Shown: one piece after another, positions 1 to 62,901 of the stretch
Layout of the letters: the number at the start of each line of letters is the position of its first letter
Numbering within the stretch: the stretch's first letter is position 1
Source: a virus
Direction: 5' to 3' (one strand)
DNA: 64,000 bases
Virus record (IMG/VR): IMGVR_UViG_3300036818_000107
Span: 1 to 64,000 of that record
Notes under the pieces: generated by a model
The model's database searches: none
What the model was told of the DNA's origin: nothing
Seen by the model: the letters and a program-made list of their open reading frames with translations, nothing else
Program-made: the position numbers and the translations under genes

Positions 1-39
1 AACATGCAGATTGTGTATGATTGCGAGAGGAAGGATTGA
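1..39 (+). CDS. partial small protein, C-terminal end
   Basis: The reading frame is open from base 1 and stops with TGA at 37-39. The last 12 codons are identical to the end of the 42-aa GTG-started gene at 62773-62901, so this is the 3' end of its duplicate. No function is recognised. Its end holds the ribosome site of the next gene. Confidence 0.5.
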   Translation, partial: NMQIVYDCERKD

Positions 40-42
40 GCC

Positions 43-294
43 ATGAACGAGAACATTCTTAGTGCTGCTATAGCTCTGTCTGCTGGCAACAAAGCCAAGG
101 CGACGAACTCAAGAGGTGAGACGATCGTGGTCCAGGAGCTGTTTCCTGAGCGTCACGATTGGAATTTGCACGTCTGGGTTATTGCGCCAGACAGAGGCCG
201 TGTCTACGAGACGGATTTCCAATTTAGACAAGGCTATAAGCTCAAAGAGATCTACGAGGTTGACCCAGGTGAGAAAATTTGGGCTGCAGTGTAG
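43..294 (+). CDS. conserved 83-aa protein (left paralogue)
   Basis: An unrecognised small, probably cytoplasmic protein preceded by an AGGAAGG ribosome site. The near-identical copy at 62905-63156 keeps length and frame despite about ten amino-acid changes, which indicates selection on the protein. The C-terminal half (YKLKEIYEVDPGEKIWAAV) is invariant and changes cluster in the middle. It starts three bases after the stop of the preceding small gene, so the two are likely co-transcribed. Confidence 0.7.
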   Translation: MNENILSAAIALSAGNKAKATNSRGETIVVQELFPERHDWNLHVWVIAPDRGRVYETDFQFRQGYKLKEIYEVDPGEKIWAAV

Positions 295-321
295 TGGGCT
301 TGAGCAGAGCTGGCAAACAAA

Positions 322-355
322 ATAGCCCTCAAGGCAGCTACTCCTCTTGGGCTAT
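322..355 (+). ncRNA. covarying hairpin, left copy
   Basis: The 7-bp stem ATAGCCC (322-328) pairs with GGGCTAT (349-355) around a 20-base loop. In the right copy the stem is AACCGCC/GGCGGTT at 63184-63217, again with a 20-base loop sharing AGCTACTCC. Four base pairs differ by compensatory double changes while the flanks are almost identical. It lies just after the 83-aa gene. It may be a terminator or attenuator, although the left copy lacks a clean T-tract. Confidence 0.6.
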
Positions 356-490
356 CTCGCTCCGTAGTCCTATCGCGCTAGGCCACCTGTCACGTTCACA
401 GATGTTCTCTACAGCATTCTCAATTTTGGTGATGGAGCACATTGTACCAACAATCCGCAATCCTGACAAGCCCCGTATCTCATCTTGTGT

Positions 491-532
491 AGCAACCGAC
501 CTGTGTTACCTTTCTGCTTCCACTCGTTCTAC
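491..532. repeat. 42-bp direct repeat, left copy
   Basis: Exact repeat of 63923-63964, running from AGCAACCGACC to CTCGTTCTAC. Here it lies only about 20 bases after the end of the 470-bp duplicated segment. On the right, about 590 bases with two genes lie in between. It marks the outer edge of a cassette insertion or deletion. Confidence 0.85.
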
Positions 533-562
533 TATGGATGCACAATATTTGCATCTAACTAT

Positions 563-576
563 CTAATGCGCATTAG
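563..576. promoter_or_regulatory. palindrome upstream of DUF4352 gene
   Basis: CTAATGCGCATTAG is a perfect 14-bp palindrome 21 bases before the start codon at 597. Just upstream, GATGCA and TGCATC form a second inverted pair (537-555). Position and symmetry suggest a regulator-binding site. No clear -35/-10 pair was assigned. Confidence 0.35.
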
Positions 577-596
577 AAAGGTATTTACACAAGACT

Positions 597-1373
597 ATGA
601 GTCAATATCCTAACGATCCCACTACCGGGGGCTATCCACCGCCTCCGCAGTATGGACAGTATCCACCGCAGCAGCCTAGTTACCCACCACAAGGTTACGG
701 CCCACCATCACAGCCTGGATTCTCTCAACAGCCTATGCCACCGGGATACCCACAAATGCCACCACAGCCTATGCAGCCCGTCAAGAAGAAGGGCAAAGGA
801 TTGTGGATTGCACTCGGCGTTATCGTCGGTGCTGTGGTGCTCTGTGCCGCGATTGCAAGCACATCCAAGAGTGGCAACACTGGCACAAAAGCTGACACAG
901 CGGCTAATAACACCGGCTCGTCAACGACGAATAGTACTAGCGATAGCTCTACACCGTCTCAGCCGCCTCCTCAGCCCTCTAACCAGCATTTCAAGCCCGG
1001 CGATACGGTGGCTGTGGGCGATACTTGGAGTGTCACACTCAGCAATGTCCGCTCCGTTCCCGCTGGCCAGTATGACAGTCTCAAGTCGGGAGACATGTAT
1101 ATTGGCGTTGATGTGAACTTCAAGAATGTCTCGCCTGCTGAAGCCAGTCTTTTCGGCAATGCTGACTGGACACTGAAAGACACACAGGGACAGAAGTACG
1201 ACAATGCCTATGTCTCTGACTTTCCGAATCCGCCCGACGGTAAAGTTGAAGCTGGTAGCCCTGCAAAAGGCTCGCTCATTTTTGAAGTACCAGCGTCTAC
1301 CCATAACTTCCAGCTCGCTTACGAACAGAACATGTTTTCTAGTGGTCAAACCATCTGGGATATCTCAGTCTAG
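597..1373 (+). CDS. DUF4352 membrane-anchored extracellular protein
   Basis: This 258-aa protein has four parts. Residues 1-60 are rich in Pro, Tyr and Gln (PPPPQYGQYPPQQ type). One transmembrane helix spans about 67-88 (GLWIALGVIVGAVVLCAAIA). A Ser/Thr/Pro linker runs to about 130, and a beta-rich C-terminal domain begins FKPGDTVAVGDTWSVTL. The last domain fits DUF4352, an immunoglobulin-like extracellular fold common in Firmicutes, Actinobacteria and Chloroflexota. Its molecular role is unknown. In a prophage it would be a cargo gene altering the host surface, though it may instead be host DNA just inside the end repeat. The ribosome site is weak. Confidence 0.8.
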   Translation: MSQYPNDPTTGGYPPPPQYGQYPPQQPSYPPQGYGPPSQPGFSQQPMPPGYPQMPPQPMQPVKKKGKGLWIALGVIVGAVVLCAAIASTSKSGNTGTKADTAANNTGSSTTNSTSDSSTPSQPPPQPSNQHFKPGDTVAVGDTWSVTLSNVRSVPAGQYDSLKSGDMYIGVDVNFKNVSPAEASLFGNADWTLKDTQGQKYDNAYVSDFPNPPDGKVEAGSPAKGSLIFEVPASTHNFQLAYEQNMFSSGQTIWDISV

Positions 1374-1388
1374 ACACCATGTCCATAC

Positions 1389-1421
1389 GGGAAAGGTGTG
1401 TTTTGAAAACGTGCCTTTCCC
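1389..1421. terminator. hairpin between convergent genes
   Basis: GGGAAAGG (1389-1396) pairs with CCTTTCCC (1414-1421), with further pairing of TTTT and AAAA inside. It lies between a plus-strand gene ending at 1373 and a minus-strand gene ending at 1431, the expected place for a two-way terminator. No strong T-tract follows. Confidence 0.5.
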
Positions 1422-1430
1422 AAATTCTCC

Positions 1431-2594
1431 CTACCAGTACAAATCTTGCCGTAGCTGCTCAAAAAAGTCTTCAATTCCACATCTACTAGACGGTGCCCTC
1501 CTACAAGCATTTGCCATCTTATCGGACATCTTATAGTTGCTCAATTCTGCTTCTCTCCTCATGGCTTTCACGCGCTCTAGACATTCTTCAAAGTGCTCTT
1601 CATCCTGATATGCTTGAACAAACTTCCATACATCGTCTTCTAGTTCCTCATCAGTGACCACCGGATCACTAGGTAGCTCAGGCAAGGGCTCAGTTACCGG
1701 AGGCTTTGCTTGCAACCAACCATCTAGCCATCGTACCAAGTTACCGGGATGGATCTTGGATGTGTTGAGTACTGGCTGTTCTTGTCTACAATAGGCCACA
1801 AGGCTCTTGATATCCTCTACCGTCTTGATACTGCTGCTTAGCTTGGTAAAGTGCTCTATGCCCTTTGTGGTGAGATTTGGATGGCAATTAGGATACAGTT
1901 CTTGGCAGATAAGATCATACGTCCGTCTTACTTCTGGTAAAAGATCAAGAGAAGAAGACTGGGTGGATGAATGAGAGAAAGAATCGTCCTGAGTCGAGAC
2001 GGTAGAGTTTTGCTCAGTTGCGTCATTCTTTCGTTCGGTTATCTGTGTTTCTGTAATCTCTGTAGTAATCTCTGTTATTGCTCCCACGGATTCGTGATTT
2101 GCAAAACCTGAATTCCAGAAATGTTTATGCTTAGAGCAAATCACGGATTCATGATTTGCATTTCTGGGATTACAGATTTGCTTGACGGTTTTAATGAGAT
2201 GCACTATGTCCTTATCCATGCCAAGACAAGCTAAGCAGATCTCATGTCCCTGGCATAGCTCAAAGAGCTTCTCACACTGCTCTTTTCCAAAGTAAAAGTG
2301 TTTGGTCCGGTCTGCTCCCCACTCTGGATTCTTCCCTCTGCCAATGAGACCCATATCAACAAGCTTATTTACTTCTAGCCTGACTTTCTCACTTCCCCAT
2401 GCATTAGCCATTTTCTTGGTAAGCACCTCTGTTGTATCGTAGTAGGTAATCTCCCCGGCCTGTATCTTATCTTGAGGCTGGTCCTTTGACTTCTTAGCAA
2501 TCCAGTAGAGTATGTGGTTGAATAATGCGGCTCGACAGCCATCTTGACAGAACTTCATAAAACTTGGACGAATAATAACAACTATCTCACTCAT
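1431..2594 (-). CDS. replication-initiator-like HTH protein
   Basis: 387 aa. Residues 1-110 are helical and resemble winged-helix replication initiators or DnaD-like proteins (ALFNHILYWIAKKSKDQ...). The middle is low-complexity Thr/Ser/Glu with two short repeats around NHESV. The C-terminal 80 residues (LTTKGIEHFTKL...IHPGNLVRWLDGW) match the end of the protein at 45534-46748 (LTNKGHWATL...VKPGNLANADNLNGW), so the window holds two paralogues sharing a C-terminal domain. The start at 2594 is preferred because GGAAG lies six bases upstream; an ATG at 2606 is also in frame. It likely acts in replication initiation or helicase loading, by inference. Confidence 0.55.
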   Translation of the reverse strand: MSEIVVIIRPSFMKFCQDGCRAALFNHILYWIAKKSKDQPQDKIQAGEITYYDTTEVLTKKMANAWGSEKVRLEVNKLVDMGLIGRGKNPEWGADRTKHFYFGKEQCEKLFELCQGHEICLACLGMDKDIVHLIKTVKQICNPRNANHESVICSKHKHFWNSGFANHESVGAITEITTEITETQITERKNDATEQNSTVSTQDDSFSHSSTQSSSLDLLPEVRRTYDLICQELYPNCHPNLTTKGIEHFTKLSSSIKTVEDIKSLVAYCRQEQPVLNTSKIHPGNLVRWLDGWLQAKPPVTEPLPELPSDPVVTDEELEDDVWKFVQAYQDEEHFEECLERVKAMRREAELSNYKMSDKMANACRRAPSSRCGIEDFFEQLRQDLYW

Positions 2595-2666
2595 AACGGC
2601 TTCCATTCCACAATATAAAATAGGAGAAATAAAAGAGGGCTAGAGCCAAAACCCTAGCCCTAGAAA

Positions 2667-3212
2667 CTAGAATACTTGTTGAGAGCCTGACTGCTGAGCC
2701 TCTAGCTGTAACGCCTTAACCTCTTTCCAGTAGCCATCTAGAAATGCCCTATCTCGCTCTTTGCCCTTGCGAACGATCTCTAGCCAGTACTCCCTCGTTC
2801 TTGGAGTAGACTCGACCTGCTCAGCTACTACTTCAATTTCGACTGGCTGTAGGGGCTCAGGCTTTGCTGCTACCTGTGTCGTTTGGTGCTCTCTCAACGT
2901 GCCCTGGTGTTCACAGTTGTCATGCTTGCAAGAACAGCCCATGCCTTGTGGTGTTGCCATCATGATGTAGTACCATCCGATCATTTCACGGCTAGCAACG
3001 AGGTAGAGGGTTGTTCCAGGCTTGAAATTGAACTTTCGCTCTTGCAGCTCAACCTTGTTAAGTACGTCGATCTCAGTAGCAAAGAATTCGAAGTTTGGAA
3101 CATCGATCCTCAAAATCTCAACACGGTTTGGGCTATCCAGACGGGTCATGAAATGCTTGTGCTCAGAGCAGGTCCCGATACAGTAGCCGCGATTTGGTGT
3201 TTTAGTTGCCAT
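2667..3212 (-). CDS. SWIM-type zinc-finger protein A
   Basis: 181 aa. The segment GCSCKHDNCEH carries the SWIM signature CxC-(n)-CxH near residue 95, after a strand-rich region ending YLVAS...GWYYIMM. The C-terminal half is Pro/Glu-rich then helical. SWIM domains bind zinc and are found in DNA-binding or protein-binding partners. A second SWIM protein lies at 60248-60736 in the same arrangement: each is divergent from an HTH gene and each promoter has an operator in its spacer. The ATG at 3212 follows AAGGAG by 12 bases. Role unknown; a regulator or partner of the divergent HTH protein is an inference. Confidence 0.6.
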   Translation of the reverse strand: MATKTPNRGYCIGTCSEHKHFMTRLDSPNRVEILRIDVPNFEFFATEIDVLNKVELQERKFNFKPGTTLYLVASREMIGWYYIMMATPQGMGCSCKHDNCEHQGTLREHQTTQVAAKPEPLQPVEIEVVAEQVESTPRTREYWLEIVRKGKERDRAFLDGYWKEVKALQLEAQQSGSQQVF

Positions 3213-3243
3213 GTGTGTTAATATCTCCTTGATGTAAAGACGA

Positions 3244-3300
3244 GGAACCCGGAGGTTCCGACTAGCCCGAGTGAAGTAGAGAGCCACTCGGGCTTTTTTT
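3244..3300 (-). promoter_or_regulatory. two-hairpin 5' leader of SWIM gene A
   Basis: The predicted leader (about 3314 to 3213) can fold into AGCCCGAGTG/CACTCGGGCT (3264-3273 with 3285-3294) and GGAACC/GGTTCC (3244-3259). Read on the plus strand the larger hairpin is followed by seven T and would be a good terminator, yet no plus-strand gene ends here. It may stop antisense transcription or shape the leader. Confidence 0.5.
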
Positions 3301-3320
3301 GTGCTTTTCAAGACACTCTT

Positions 3321-3349
3321 ATTATGAAGCATATGCTTCAATTTGTCAA
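3321..3349 (-). promoter_or_regulatory. SWIM gene A promoter with operator
   Basis: On the minus strand, TTGACA (3349-3344), a 17-base spacer and CATAAT (3326-3321) form a near-consensus promoter. The spacer is nearly filled by the 16-bp perfect palindrome TGAAGCATATGCTTCA (3325-3340). The same word occurs in the opposing promoter at 3419-3447, and AATTGAAGCATATA recurs at 3365-3378, so one regulator probably controls both directions. Confidence 0.8.
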
Positions 3350-3400
3350 TGGTTTTTGCTATGAAATTGAAGCATATAATGGAAATTTGGGGAAATTGAA

Positions 3401-3447
3401 AATTGGTCTCTAAACCCCTTGACAAATTGAAGCATATGCGGTATATT
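3401..3447 (+). promoter_or_regulatory. HTH gene promoter with operator
   Basis: TTGACA (3419-3424), a 17-base spacer and TATATT (3442-3447). The spacer carries AATTGAAGCATATGC, the same element as in the opposing promoter. Upstream, AATTGGTCTCT (3401-3411) followed by AAACCCC is shared at 21 of 24 positions with the promoter at 10733-10756, suggesting a common promoter module within the element. Confidence 0.8.
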
Positions 3448-3493
3448 ATGAATGTGCAACGGCACACGAAACGTTTGACTAAGGAGTATGGCT

Positions 3494-3766
3494 ATGCCAA
3501 GTGAGGAGCAACAGCCAAATAGTGAGGGAGATGACAAGCTGAAAGAGTGGTATACCGCTGGGCAAGCTGCAAAAAAGCTAAGCGAAAACAGCGGGAAGCC
3601 AATCGATCCCGATTACGTTTTCAAGCTTGCTTATCTGGGGAAAATAAGCACTATGAAGCTGGGTATACGGGTAACTCTCTACAGCAAAAAGGATGTGGAT
3701 AGTTACAAAGTCGGAGGTAGAGGTAGAAGACCTGCCAAGGACAGCAAGCAAGCAGACGCGGCATAG
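3494..3766 (+). CDS. Xis/MerR-like HTH DNA-binding protein
   Basis: 90 aa. The core EWYTAGQAAKKLS...DYVFKLAYLGKI...LYSKKDVDSY has the layout of small excisionase/MerR-type winged helices, followed by a basic tail (GGRGRRPAKDSK). It aligns well with the protein at 40866-41090. The start at 3494 is chosen because AAGGAG (3481-3486) is seven bases upstream; the ATG at 3488 is too close. It is divergent from SWIM gene A and both promoters share an operator, so it is the natural candidate for the regulator binding there. That link is inferred. Confidence 0.65.
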   Translation: MPSEEQQPNSEGDDKLKEWYTAGQAAKKLSENSGKPIDPDYVFKLAYLGKISTMKLGIRVTLYSKKDVDSYKVGGRGRRPAKDSKQADAA

Positions 3767-3904
3767 CCTGGGCACGTGGCCTATCAACTGATGAGGCAGA
3801 CAGAGCCACGAGCCAGTAACTATTGATGTAAGTATAGTGAAGATTGCACCATTTGTGCAAGGTGCAAATGTTCTACTCCCGTTTGGGAGGAAAGGAGTGA
3901 TTGA
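3767..3904 (+). promoter_or_regulatory. intergenic region with inverted repeats
   Basis: TTGCACC and GGTGCAA form an inverted repeat (about 3844-3868), and CTCCC/GGGAG flank the ribosome site of the next gene. They could serve as terminator or leader structure. No gene was found here. Confidence 0.3.
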
Positions 3905-4075
3905 ATGGCACAGCAGAACGGCTTTACCGACATTGCACTGAGAGAAGTGCATACAGGTGAGAAGACGATTGAGGATCTCGAGCGCAAAGTCAAGTTTCTC
4001 AGCAAGAGATCGGATGAGACATCTCATAAGATGCTTGAAGGCATCCAAGCAGCTCTCGACATTCTGAAGAAGTAG
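3905..4075 (+). CDS. small helical protein
   Basis: 56 aa, starting MAQQNGFTDIALREVHTGEK. Most of the rest is a charged helix with heptad-like spacing (TIEDLERKVKFLSKRSDE), so it may form a coiled coil. AAAGGAG lies eight bases before the ATG. Unrecognised; first gene of a short run with 4132-4694. Confidence 0.55.
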   Translation: MAQQNGFTDIALREVHTGEKTIEDLERKVKFLSKRSDETSHKMLEGIQAALDILKK

Positions 4076-40708: not shown

Positions 40709-40866
40709 CTTATTCCCCCTTTCTTTCGCTCATTCTCTAAATCCACAAACATCCCCTTAATCTCTTTCATCCTCTGCTTGTGCTCTAGGTGTCTTGTCAC
40801 CATCCTGTATGTGAACAGGATAGCTGTGAGGGCTCCAAGCAACCAGAGGACTCCATTAGGCCACAT
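40705..40866 (-). CDS. small membrane protein, 53 aa
   Basis: One transmembrane helix (NGVLWLLGALTAILFTY) then a charged helical tail. GGAGG lies eight bases before the ATG, and TGATG overlap with the HTH gene and TTGA overlap with the next gene support it. Function unknown. Confidence 0.6.
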   Translation of the reverse strand: MWPNGVLWLLGALTAILFTYRMVTRHLEHKQRMKEIKGMFVDLENERKKGGIS

Positions 40867-41090
40867 CAGCTATTCCTCCTTCCTTTCTGTCTTATCACAC
40901 ACGCCTCTATATCCTCACGATTATACATAAGACGATTATTTAGCCATTCTGTCCGTATTGGCTGTTTTTTGCTTTTTGACAAGAGTCGAACGTAATCCAC
41001 AGATATCGGGCGACCCATTTTCTGACTAAGCATTTGAGATGCATCCCGTGCAGATATATAGTCTGCAAGAGGAACTATTTTTTTAGGCAT
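40866..41090 (-). CDS. Xis/MerR-like HTH regulator
   Basis: 74 aa. YISARDASQMLSQKMGRPIS then DYVRLLSKSKKQPI and LMYNREDIEACVI match the protein at 3494-3766 in length and motif order. GGAGG seven bases before the ATG. The promoter region carries two GTCTAGAC-centred palindromes, so autoregulation is likely. It could also activate the late promoter 600 bases downstream, which lies past a terminator. That is an inference. Confidence 0.7.
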   Translation of the reverse strand: MPKKIVPLADYISARDASQMLSQKMGRPISVDYVRLLSKSKKQPIRTEWLNNRLMYNREDIEACVIRQKGRRNS

Positions 41091-48468: not shown

Positions 48469-49781
48469 GCTGTCACCCCACTCACCAAAGAGGCTTTTAT
48501 TTCTTCTATAGTCACAATGCAGGTTTTGTCGATATCGCATCCAACAAACTGGCGTTCCATCTCCATAGCAACAATTGCCGTTGTCCCACCACCAACGAAT
48601 GGGTCACAGATGAGTTGACCAGTCTCGGTAAAGCGTTCAATGATATCTGCCATTCCGCTTTCAGACTGACCCCACTTGTGAAAGCGTTTATCATTTTGAT
48701 TGACATCGCTCTTGCAGACATCACCAATCCACTGGCCTGTATATTCGCCCTTCACATACCACAAAAGTGGTTTCCAGAATGTATTGACATTTCTTTGCCA
48801 GAGCTGAGGGGATTGACCTCCTGGTGTGAGATAGCTCAGCATCCATTGGTAGCTCATCCGTTTACCTAGTTTCTCCATGATTTCAGGTAAGTAGGATTGC
48901 CCAACCATCGCAATAAGAGATCCGCCGGGCTTCAATGCGTAGGCAGCAAACGCGGCTAGATCGTCATAGACAGATAAAAATTCTCGAGGGTATGGTGGAT
49001 CGGTGATAATATAATCAATGCTCTCTGGCTGTACATACTGTGAAAGTTCGGAAACGCTACAATGATAGAGTTGACAGTGCTCTGCTCTGCTCACTGCTTC
49101 AAGGTAACGCTGGTGTCTCAATTCCTGCTGTCTTACTGCTTCCTCTTCTTCTTCCTTTTGCTTACGACGTGCATCTTTATCTTTTTGTTCGTATTTCTTC
49201 AGTAGTTTATGTGCTGCGTTAATGCTCTCATCATTCAGTGTCATTTTTAGGATGTCGCTACGTTCACTAAGTGCCTCATCCATGTACTGGACAATTTCTT
49301 TGCCCTTTTCGTAAGTCTTGCCGGAACCTAAACCGACACGACGGGCTATAACGTCGCGAACGTCACTATCTGCAACTTCCCGGAAAATTTTCCGGGAAGT
49401 TGCATCTTTTTGCTTCCCCTGTCTCTTTTTTGCCTTTTCCTCTTCTATCGGTTCCCACGTCATTCCCTCTCTAATCTGCTGTTCTGGAGTTTTGCCCCTA
49501 TTCTCGTTTTCCCGTAAAAGGCGTTCCATCTCAGCTTCTTCAGAGGCAAACTTCTCTATCACAACGGGAAGCTCTGTATAGCCTAGCCTCTTAGCTGCTT
49601 GATAGCGTCTATGACCACTAATAACCATGTACTCAGGATTGACGGTAAGCGGCTTAATCCATCCAGACTCTTGAATGCTTTGCTGTAGAGCCGTGATATC
49701 CTCATCACCGTAGATCTCGACATTGCGAGGGTGTGGCTGTAAGAGTGAGATATCAATTTCTTGTGCTAATTCGACTGCCAT
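48465..49781 (-). CDS. ParB-domain DNA methyltransferase 2
   Basis: 438 aa from ATG 49781 (AAGGAAA upstream). The ParB-like domain (ISLLQPHPRNVEIYGDE...YMVISGHRRYQAAKRLGY) and HTH are followed by a Lys/Glu-rich linker. A methyltransferase domain then carries ITDPPYPREF and CDPFVGGGTT. It lies upstream of a PD-(D/E)XK-like gene. A 34-bp perfect palindrome lies in the coding sequence at 49371-49404 (SRKIFREV region), between the ParB and HTH parts. Confidence 0.85.
   Translation of the reverse strand: MAVELAQEIDISLLQPHPRNVEIYGDEDITALQQSIQESGWIKPLTVNPEYMVISGHRRYQAAKRLGYTELPVVIEKFASEEAEMERLLRENENRGKTPEQQIREGMTWEPIEEEKAKKRQGKQKDATSRKIFREVADSDVRDVIARRVGLGSGKTYEKGKEIVQYMDEALSERSDILKMTLNDESINAAHKLLKKYEQKDKDARRKQKEEEEEAVRQQELRHQRYLEAVSRAEHCQLYHCSVSELSQYVQPESIDYIITDPPYPREFLSVYDDLAAFAAYALKPGGSLIAMVGQSYLPEIMEKLGKRMSYQWMLSYLTPGGQSPQLWQRNVNTFWKPLLWYVKGEYTGQWIGDVCKSDVNQNDKRFHKWGQSESGMADIIERFTETGQLICDPFVGGGTTAIVAMEMERQFVGCDIDKTCIVTIEEIKASLVSGVTA
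49371..49404. promoter_or_regulatory. 34-bp perfect palindrome inside ParB-MTase gene
   Basis: TGCAACTTCCCGGAAAA is followed directly by its exact reverse complement, so the palindrome has no spacer. A chance palindrome of this length is extremely unlikely. It could be a protein-binding site (parS-like, or for the ParB-like domain coded here), a methylation-related site, or a small inserted hairpin kept in frame. Confidence 0.7.
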
Positions 49782-55077: not shown

Positions 55078-55299
55078 ATGTCATCATTACGATTGCAATT
55101 TGGGCGACGCCTCGCACTTCTCCGCAGGCAGAGCGGCTTCTCTCAAACCGAGTTGGCATTTGAGACGGGACTATCTAGAGATCAGATAAGCCTGATGGAG
55201 ACGGGCAAATCTGGTGCGAGCTTCGATTCCATGGAAGCACTAGCTGAAGCGCTGAGTGTGGAAGTCTGGGAGTTGTTGTACTTCAGAGATCTGGCATAG
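55078..55299 (+). CDS. XRE-family repressor 2
   Basis: 73 aa. RLALLRRQSGFSQTELAFET then SRDQISLMETGKSGASFDSM, a Cro/CI-type HTH closely resembling the protein at 54263-54505. Tandem repressor pairs often form a lysogeny switch, but the gene between is on the other strand. Convergent with the papain-like gene. Confidence 0.85.
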   Translation: MSSLRLQFGRRLALLRRQSGFSQTELAFETGLSRDQISLMETGKSGASFDSMEALAEALSVEVWELLYFRDLA

Positions 55300-58130: not shown

Positions 58131-58871
58131 CTATGCGCTTTTTTGCTTCTGTGCCTCAATTTTCGAGAATAGCTCTACTTTGTGCTCTGCTGTGAGATTT
58201 GAGACTTGCGCCTGTAAAGCATAAATCTTGAACTTGCTCCACCGTGTCTCTATCTCGTTGTCAGGTATTCGGTAGACTTTCGCCCAGTCGGTCTTCAGCC
58301 CCTCTTCAGTAAGAGTGTCACCGTCTATCATGGCTATGCGCCCGTTGCCATACAGACCGTTACCAAACTGCTCTCCAAACGTTCTGAGGGCTCGCTTGAC
58401 CGCATCAGTGACAGCGCCTTTCTCAGCTTGCTCATGGGACTCCATAATTATGGTCCTGGCCAGGGATACCTCGAAAGGATTGAAGGGCGAGTCATCAATC
58501 TCTGTATTTTTCTCACTTGCCTCTTTCCTCCGCTTACCCATGACATGATCTTCAATGCTAGCTGTGGCGACGGGTTGACTGCCAACTTCAAACACTGGAA
58601 TACAGCCCCGGACGTCGAGTCTCACCTTGGCTTTGTAGCAAGCGCCCACAGCCTCGCCGGTTAATATGTCCCTGATGATCGTCTGCTCGCAAGAGAGGGT
58701 CTCATATCCCCAACAACCGTATCCAAACAACCTGTCTGCTTGGTCTATCGCATCGTGACCCTCTAGGTAGCGAAGCTTGCGACCGCTTGCTCCTTTGCGG
58801 TCACTGATAAATCGTTTGTCGAGAGCCTTGTCTAGCTCTTTGAGCTGCTTCTCACTGAATGGACTTTCCAT
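58131..58871 (-). CDS. Rad52/22-family single-strand annealing protein
   Basis: 246 aa. Residues 30-60 read LRYLEGHDAIDQADRLFGYG then CWGYE, the signature of the phage Rad52/22 family, followed by a C-terminal helical domain. These proteins anneal complementary single strands in phage recombination. The start follows GGAG nine bases away, inside a duplicated leader whose other copy lies upstream at 59490-59653. Confidence 0.85.
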   Translation of the reverse strand: MESPFSEKQLKELDKALDKRFISDRKGASGRKLRYLEGHDAIDQADRLFGYGCWGYETLSCEQTIIRDILTGEAVGACYKAKVRLDVRGCIPVFEVGSQPVATASIEDHVMGKRRKEASEKNTEIDDSPFNPFEVSLARTIIMESHEQAEKGAVTDAVKRALRTFGEQFGNGLYGNGRIAMIDGDTLTEEGLKTDWAKVYRIPDNEIETRWSKFKIYALQAQVSNLTAEHKVELFSKIEAQKQKSA

Positions 58872-60247: not shown

Positions 60248-60736
60248 CTATCCGACTTTTAATAAATTGAAAGGCTTACTTCCGAAGTTGCCTTTATTCG
60301 TGAGGTCCGTTGAGACTGCCGTCTTCCGGTACCCGCGTAACTCAACGGATAGATCCATTGCAATCGGTGGCACAATCTCCTGTGCAGGCATCTCAACAAG
60401 AGACTCTGCAACCTGCTCTACAATCTCAACGGTCATGTACTGCTGAGCAAGCTTCTTTGCGAGCTCTGCGCGATACTCAGACCACTCACGGGCTTCCTTT
60501 TGCTCAGGAGTCTCTGCTCTCGCAACTTCTAGTGCTTGGAGCTGATGTTTGTGGTAGCAGCCCTTCTTAGAGCGACTAGGACAACTGCACCCGGAAGCCT
60601 CACCATTGACGATTGTGGTGCAATAAGTGCTCTTGCCGTCAGAGCTTTTCACCAGATAGGTTACCGTGCCATTCAACTTACCGTTGGTTTTGTGTGCGTA
60701 CCGTGCGATGATGGTTACTTGCTTCGTGGTTTTCAT
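60248..60736 (-). CDS. SWIM-type zinc-finger protein B
   Basis: 162 aa. TYLVKSSDGKSTYCTT leads to GCSCPSRSKKGCYHKH, a SWIM pattern CxC-x7-CxH, then a helical Glu/Ala-rich middle. Same layout as the protein at 2667-3212 (strand-rich front with YLV-S, then GCSC, then CxH). Divergent from the HTH gene at 60907, with an operator in each promoter. AAGGAG eight bases before the ATG. Confidence 0.65.
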   Translation of the reverse strand: MKTTKQVTIIARYAHKTNGKLNGTVTYLVKSSDGKSTYCTTIVNGEASGCSCPSRSKKGCYHKHQLQALEVARAETPEQKEAREWSEYRAELAKKLAQQYMTVEIVEQVAESLVEMPAQEIVPPIAMDLSVELRGYRKTAVSTDLTNKGNFGSKPFNLLKVG

Positions 60737-60779: not shown

Positions 60780-60808
60780 ATTATGCCATAACATCGTGGC
60801 ATTGTCAA
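60780..60808 (-). promoter_or_regulatory. SWIM gene B promoter with operator
   Basis: On the minus strand TTGACA (60808-60803), 17 bases, CATAAT (60785-60780). The spacer holds CCATAACATCGTGG (60786-60799, read on the plus strand), a near-palindrome also found in the facing promoter. Confidence 0.8.
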
Positions 60809-60846: not shown

Positions 60847-60875
60847 TTGATATTTCCATGATTTCGTGGTATCCT
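60847..60875 (+). promoter_or_regulatory. HTH gene promoter with operator
   Basis: TTGATA (60847-60852), 17 bases, TATCCT (60870-60875). The spacer holds CCATGATTTCGTGG (60856-60869), matching the operator in the facing promoter at 11 of 14 positions. The arrangement is as in 3321-3447. Confidence 0.75.
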
Positions 60876-60906: not shown

Positions 60907-61209
60907 ATGGAGGAAAAAGACAGGACTGTACAAAAGGCCGTCAAGCTTCTAAGAAAGCATGAAAAACCGCTTATAAGGGAGCTGGGAGCATCGGCTTTTG
61001 ATCTACTCACTCCTACACAAGCAGCAAATGAGCTGAGTGTAGGAGTACCACGTCTAGGAGATCTTGTCAGGCAATGCTGGTTAGCAGCTGCTCCTGATAA
61101 AGACGTTGGGCATGCTCATCAGTACTACCGATGGAGGGTAGAGTTTGTGAAGCGGTATCGGACAACTTATAAGAAAGCAGCACAATCTGAAGAGACGAAT
61201 GCTGCATAG
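60907..61209 (+). CDS. HTH protein divergent from SWIM gene B
   Basis: 100 aa. Basic helical N-terminus, then LLTPTQAANELSVGVPRLGD as an Xis/MerR-like HTH and a basic helical tail. AAAGGAGGG precedes the ATG. The presumed regulator of the shared operators; counterpart of the protein at 3494-3766, although the sequences are only distantly alike. Confidence 0.6.
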   Translation: MEEKDRTVQKAVKLLRKHEKPLIRELGASAFDLLTPTQAANELSVGVPRLGDLVRQCWLAAAPDKDVGHAHQYYRWRVEFVKRYRTTYKKAAQSEETNAA

Positions 61210-62772: not shown

Positions 62773-62901
62773 GTGGCTAGAGCAGAGCTGAGATGTCCAG
62801 GTCAAGAACAAACGATAAAAGATCGTCATGATGTAGATTTGCCTCTAGAGCAGGTAGCAGGCAACATGCAGATTGTGTATGATTGCGAGAGGAAGGATTG
62901 A
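62773..62901 (+). CDS. small protein, 42 aa, GTG start
   Basis: Begins VARAELRCPGQEQTIKDRHD and ends with a Cys/Asp/Lys-containing tail. GGAG lies in the preceding stop region. Its last codons are identical in the left copy (1-39). Unknown. Confidence 0.55.
   Translation: MARAELRCPGQEQTIKDRHDVDLPLEQVAGNMQIVYDCERKD

Follow-up and report, generated by a model that had tools for sequence, protein, structure and literature searches.

In the immunity regions of lambdoid phages and of TP901-1 (cI/cro, CI/MOR), the gene for a small HTH repressor and the leading gene of the early operon diverge, operators lie within the spacers of the promoters, and repressor and operator undergo heteroimmune exchange. 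P2 Cox, 186 Apl and AlpA are short single-domain HTH_17 proteins found at divergent or opposed phage promoters. The SWIM zinc finger (PF04434), which includes Shu2/SWS1 of the Shu complex, consists of a beta-hairpin, the signature CxC-xn-CxH and a helix, and DNA or protein binding is predicted for SWIM domains. The eukaryotic SWIM-domain proteins SWS1/Shu2 are described in two papers as working with Rad51 paralogues (PMC6180034, PMC6821187), which gives a lead for the role of a phage SWIM protein; PMC5512222 mentions SWIM only in SWI2/SNF2 ATPases. In the literature searched, SWIM genes in phage control regions and phages of Ktedonobacteria are not described, and little or nothing has been published on gene control in Ktedonobacteria phages.

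We analyzed the first 64,000 nucleotides of a 67,138-base IMG/VR virus record (G000); in this window, two small SWIM genes are each divergently transcribed from a short HTH gene. From comparative sequence analysis, we suggest that each SWIM/HTH pair is probably an early-control cassette of a Ktedonobacteria phage, resembling an immunity region.

Results

The two divergent gene pairs

A sequence-only reading had proposed two divergent SWIM/HTH pairs in the window, and both were confirmed, all four genes being open frames with good ribosome-binding sites. The first locus (W1) contains SWIM-1, a small SWIM-type zinc-finger protein of 181 aa with CxC-x5-CxH (2667-3212, minus strand), and HTH-1, a predicted DNA-binding protein of HTH_17/MerR-like type (92 aa) and the proposed repressor (3488-3766, plus strand). 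SWIM-1 is the first gene of a leftward unit running into the gene for a DnaD-like helicase loader/replication protein (1431-2606, minus strand; phrog_6493, E=2e-6). The second locus (W2) contains SWIM-2, the 162-aa founder of the small-SWIM family (60248-60736, minus strand), and HTH-2, a probable HTH DNA-binding protein of 100 aa with the pattern LTPTQAANELSVGVPRLGDLVRQ, also a proposed repressor (60907-61209, plus strand). SWIM-2 heads a long leftward unit that continues, all on one strand, with genes for Rad52, DnaB, terminase, portal and capsid; the Rad52/22 single-strand annealing protein is encoded at 58131-58871 (minus strand; PF04098, E=7e-25). A direct duplication with a period of ~0.65 kb lies just downstream of SWIM-2 (58828-59011/59486-59668 and 59330-59489/59985-60141, 94.6% and 79.6% identical).

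None of the four proteins reaches a Pfam, PHROG or NCBIfam cut-off, and weak matches in these collections (DUF637, Rz-like spanin, tdh, kdpC) were dismissed as chance. SWIM-1 matches the SWIM-2 family profile (E=0.0015), the two proteins having diverged to 22% identity. Both have the front end noticed earlier, YLV-S followed by GCSC...CxH (YLVAS...GCSC-x5-CEH in SWIM-1, YLVKSS...GCSC-x8-CYH in SWIM-2). HTH-1, which has no Pfam match, aligns with the HTH_17 profile of partner proteins by hhalign (E=0.0038). For HTH-2 the comparison with the HTH_17 partners gave only E=0.11, in the expected register; its AF2 model is helical with low confidence, and Foldseek returned no informative match. Annotated phages and plasmids gave nothing convincing for SWIM-2 or for the distant family members, and single-sequence queries of viral contigs with SWIM-1, HTH-1 and HTH-2 found no useful relatives except a remnant of the HTH-1 end described below. 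Another small HTH gene in the window (40866-41090) is 34% identical to HTH-1 and has a 43% identical relative in an element of Dictyobacter kobayashii.

Promoters and spacer words

All four genes have predicted promoters with 17-bp spacers, and the putative operators noted inside the spacers correspond to a word common to both spacers of each locus. The SWIM-1 promoter (TTGACA-17-CATAAT, 3321-3349, minus strand) contains the perfect 16-bp palindrome TGAAGCATATGCTTCA, designated O1 (3325-3340), and the HTH-1 promoter (TTGACA-17-TATATT, 3419-3447, plus strand) contains the copy TTGAAGCATATGC at 3427-3439. Both W1 spacers contain the word AATTGAAGCATATGC without a mismatch and at equal offsets (shuffle p=0.0005); a third, partial copy, TTGAAGCATATAA, lies between the two promoters (3367-3379, plus strand). 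The copy in the HTH-1 promoter is only half-symmetric, while that in the SWIM-1 promoter is a perfect palindrome, so a dimeric repressor should hold the SWIM-1 promoter more tightly than its own. At W2, the SWIM-2 promoter (TTGACA-17-CATAAT, 60780-60808, minus strand) contains CCATAACATCGTGG at 60786-60799, and the HTH-2 promoter (TTGATA-17-TATCCT, 60847-60875, plus strand) contains CCATGATTTCGTGG at 60856-60869; the two share a 14-bp imperfect palindrome, CCAyrAnnTyrTGG, with 10 or 11 of 14 positions matching depending on orientation (shuffle p=0.001). A scan of the window found exact matches to the W1 or W2 word exclusively within the two intergenic regions.

Among the related loci introduced below, the spacer words differ in every case, and the mean spacer-pair match is 6.9 within a locus vs 4.3 across loci. 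Taken singly, the shared spacer word is significant in W1, W2 and L006 only, and it is not significant in L003, L005, L010, L015, L017 and L019. A repeat test over the whole intergenic region was significant for W1, L020 and L021 only, W2 not being significant. Shared operator words are thus demonstrated at the sequence level in W1 and W2, and they are likely in L006, L020 and L021. The divergent HTH and SWIM genes of L020, located in a Ktedonobacteria genome, are separated by a near-perfect 94-nt palindrome (1983-2076), and that genome carries the SWIM/HTH module twice (L030).

A strict scan of ~387 kb detected few divergent promoter pairs with 17-bp spacers, and 7 of the 8 SWIM modules contained in the scanned DNA are among them. 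Other such pairs occur in the related phages G052 (L046-L048; 45876 and 52339), G001 (42156) and G051 (35760). Three of these adjoin an HTH gene that faces a gene other than SWIM, so the divergent HTH arrangement is not confined to SWIM loci.

Source genome and probable alleles of the W1 locus

With genes for homologues of terminase, portal protein, capsid protein, DnaB helicase and Rad52, the record represents a tailed phage. Among cellular sequences, Dictyobacter kobayashii has the nearest relative of SWIM-2, and more relatives are present in other genomes of its class; judging from these relatives, a host from the Ktedonobacteria is very likely. A perfect 34-bp palindrome is present at 49371-49404.

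The two ends of the record are homologous. Its base 1 aligns to position 62863 and its last base to position 4064, and three flank pairs are conserved: 1-470/62863-63333 (91.8% identity), 2057-2639/64983-65577 (76%) and 3867-4064/66946-67138 (94%). Between the homologous flanks (1-4064 vs 62863-67138 of G000; L036) the operator and the HTH gene are unrelated. Most simply, the genome probably maps as a circle of ~62.9 kb and the record combines two variants occurring together, and the two ends appear to be alleles of one locus with a cassette exchanged between the homologous flanks. We prefer alleles to a true terminal duplication of the contig, because the end matches, which are not identical, begin at precisely base 1 and stop at precisely base 67138. 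The module had been described as present twice, and two copies indeed exist; on a circular genome, W1 and W2 would be ~4.3 kb apart in the phage, not 57 kb apart at opposite ends.

Three alleles were seen at the W1 locus, each with a different HTH gene. Allele A is SWIM-1/HTH-1. Allele B has a gene for an 82-aa Cys-rich protein at 65610-65858, a further HTH gene at 66068-66286 and an HNH gene. In the relative G002 (L004, 4114-5100), an XRE gene followed by a GIY-YIG endonuclease gene takes the place of HTH-1, and after the latter gene a 32-codon remnant is 88% identical to the end of HTH-1. These alleles are the most direct evidence, at the level of sequence comparison, that HTH gene and operator are exchanged together. 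The leader of the first gene has two hairpins (3232-3302; L036 5876-5946; also L004 3930-3980), whose sequence differs between alleles with the pairing kept; on the plus strand, a T run comes after the larger hairpin, which thus has the form of an intrinsic terminator facing the HTH gene.

No tyrosine or serine integrase was detected in G000, which weakens the case for lysogeny of this phage. A tyrosine integrase was found in 4 of the 5 relatives tested (G001, G002, G004 and G052) and none in G051. A plasmid-partition reading was rejected, no AAA_31-type ParA being found in any of the six records. The tyrosine integrases of the relatives would fit another explanation, in which the HTH_17 proteins serve as excisionases or other recombination directionality factors (Xis/Cox/AlpA-like) and regulate in addition, with the cassette belonging to an integration module. 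HTH_17 is the usual excisionase fold, and AlpA is a weak match for the L019 partner. However, in relatives for which the integrase and the SWIM module can both be placed, they are ~5 kb or more apart, the record carrying W1 and W2 has no detected integrase, and the XRE-type partners of L003 and L015 are not excisionases; we regard this explanation as very unlikely.

The small-SWIM family and its divergent partners

A search starting from SWIM-2 in phage records and Ktedonobacteria genomes gave, with duplicates collapsed, 12 distinct small-SWIM loci: W2 and 11 others (W1, L003, L005, L006, L010/L016, L015, L017, L019, L020, L021 and L022). SWIM identity is 35-54% among the closer members and falls to 22-30% among the distant ones. 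In all 12 loci, the gene next to SWIM on its upstream side is divergent and encodes a short HTH protein, so that a repressor-like gene faces the gene heading the early/lytic unit, as in a cI/cro-type immunity region. Homologues usually found alone would have refuted the module proposed in the sequence-only reading, and this is not the case. As a control we used ~22 distinct SWIM genes of the same phylum outside the family, mostly for host proteins of ~450 aa; a divergent HTH-like gene was present at one, a SWIM-bearing transposase-like locus (Fisher p=2.4e-8, a value that is indicative only, because the small-SWIM loci are related).

The partners belong to different HTH classes. PF12728 (HTH_17) is above cut-off in the partners of L005, L006, L019, L021 and L022 and weak in those of L010 and L017; it does not match HTH-1, HTH-2 or the L020 partner, which has no Pfam match and shows an HTH-1-like pattern by eye. 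The L003 partner is a Cro/CI-type HTH_26/HTH_3 protein (E=9e-10, above cut-off), and the L015 partner is a different HTH_26 protein just below cut-off. With partner fold and spacer word varying by locus and three alleles at W1, the proposed modular, swappable character of the unit holds up.

Ordinary co-inheritance from one phage lineage could make SWIM and HTH genes neighbors by descent, without a functional link, and all loci do come from Ktedonobacteria phages and genomes. This seems hardly probable at all, given that SWIM identity drops to the lowest range above, the flanking genes differ (Rad52, Bet, Sak4-like, DnaD-like), and the HTH classes of the L003 and L015 partners are non-homologous to the rest, so that the HTH position is refilled.

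The sequence-only reading had also called the locus a switch. In a true two-way switch, a Cro- or antirepressor-like SWIM protein would act back on the HTH protein or on shared operators, producing bistable lysis/lysogeny. The SWIM gene has the position of cro, the layout is divergent and presumably autoregulated, and a domain predicted to contact DNA or proteins would suit such a role. Against this, SWIM-2 and the SWIM proteins of L003 and L015 are ~51-54% identical, yet their partners (HTH-2 vs two HTH_26-type proteins) and operators differ, and a specific SWIM-repressor or SWIM-operator contact would need to be rebuilt each time. A conserved SWIM protein with exchanged repressors argues against SWIM as counter-repressor, Cro or dedicated antirepressor, and the conserved SWIM tail described below points to a constant partner; a two-way switch is, in our estimate, rather unlikely.

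The SWIM protein and its neighborhood

The signature CxC-xn-CxH follows beta strands in the family, with Cys and His conserved in our alignments (A5, A8) and an insertion between the first two Cys in the L006 protein. PF04434 does not match SWIM-1 or SWIM-2, and the L020 protein scores 14.2 bits vs the cut-off of 19.6. The AF2 model of SWIM-2 has strands (8-50) and a helix (61-74), with pLDDT >90 over the SWIM part and low confidence in linker and tail. The top viral Foldseek match in BFVD is the SWIM-type protein of Bacillus phage SP-15 (A0A127AWG3; prob 0.99, E=0.04), and in the PDB structure search ZSWIM8 appears only at rank 10 (E=1.5).

After a disordered linker, the family has the tail consensus LNGsrgFSlLR (SWIM-2, 60248-60280; L005, L006, L016, L017, L020, L021 and L022), which is missing in SWIM-1. 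The terminus F[SN]x[LMF][RK] occurs in 9 of the 4204 ORFs of all fetched DNA, and 8 of the 9 are small-SWIM proteins. That the tail is conserved although an unstructured linker precedes it points to a binding partner which stays constant.

Downstream of SWIM, W2 has Rad52, L003 and L016 have a RecA-like AAA_24 (Sak4-like) gene, and L015 has lambda Bet; L006 and L019 have a common uncharacterized protein in the position of the annealing gene (in L019 by eye), and W1 has the DnaD-like replication gene there. SWIM as a dedicated partner of the Sak4-type RecA paralogue was considered for L003 and L016 and is weakened by Rad52 or Bet in that place elsewhere. If the immunity-like cassette reading is right, the neighborhood favors a SWIM role in early recombination/replication over a role as transcription factor or in host takeover, with somewhat less than an even chance.

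Discussion

The immunity-like layout is suggested because the pairs stand at the head of the phage early/lytic operon and most of the relatives tested carry integrases. The small HTH protein would bind operators in the spacers that separate -35 from -10 in the two divergent promoters and block RNA polymerase at its own promoter and at that of the SWIM-headed unit. When the repressor is absent (infection) or removed (induction), the leftward unit would be transcribed with SWIM first, followed by single-strand annealing and lytic genes in W2 and the DnaD-like replication gene in W1. Operator and repressor would change together between phages, like immunity specificities, with SWIM as the constant first gene. 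The lack of a family match for HTH-2, of the tail in SWIM-1 and of a detected integrase in G000 counts against this reading, as do the non-significant spacer words of the loci listed above. The true master repressor could also be encoded elsewhere, by the XRE gene of Cro/CI type at 55078-55299.

Because SWIM is retained across loci whose exchanged repressors differ in fold, an action of SWIM on the repressor or operators is unlikely. It would most likely be an early replication/recombination effector, not an opposing repressor, with a zinc-bound SWIM domain that a flexible linker joins, in most members, to a conserved C-terminal docking tail. More tentatively, the SWIM-tail protein might be a new constant early effector (a mediator of recombination/replication, or a tail-dependent transcription factor) amid exchangeable plug-in immunity units, so that one phage could carry two cassettes without cross-talk; we consider this possible and somewhat doubtful.

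The small-SWIM gene is a recognizable marker for the early-control region of Ktedonobacteria phages. The loci offer a naturally occurring series of one early gene combined with repressors that differ in fold, making modular immunity exchange directly testable. If SWIM works with single-strand annealing proteins, this would parallel the eukaryotic partnership of SWIM proteins and Rad51 paralogues (Shu).

The proposal of an undescribed system stands for the SWIM gene, which is unreported in the literature searched, and not for the layout, which is of a known kind, the immunity region. The cassettes share with the lambdoid and TP901-1 regions the divergent gene of a small HTH protein, here a proposed repressor, the putative operators inside promoter spacers (overlapping both promoters in W1 and W2, and not demonstrable in most other loci) and the exchange of repressor with operator. 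Unlike in those regions, the opposing gene encodes a SWIM zinc-finger protein without an HTH, and the repressors are mostly HTH_17/MerR-like. P2 Cox, 186 Apl and AlpA are similar in protein type and promoter setting, whereas HTH_17 here is in the place of the repressor, away from the integrase. The SWIM proteins agree with PF04434 and Shu2/SWS1 in the succession of hairpin, CxC-xn-CxH and helix and, in several loci, in proximity to RecA/Rad52-class recombination genes; they differ in scoring below the Pfam cut-off, in being early genes and in their distinct C-terminal tail, and the SP-15 protein aligns with SWIM-2 in the SWIM part only. Relative to the known immunity layout, the novelty lies in a SWIM gene occupying the cro/N position, in repressors of HTH_17 type and in the presence of two cassettes within one phage.
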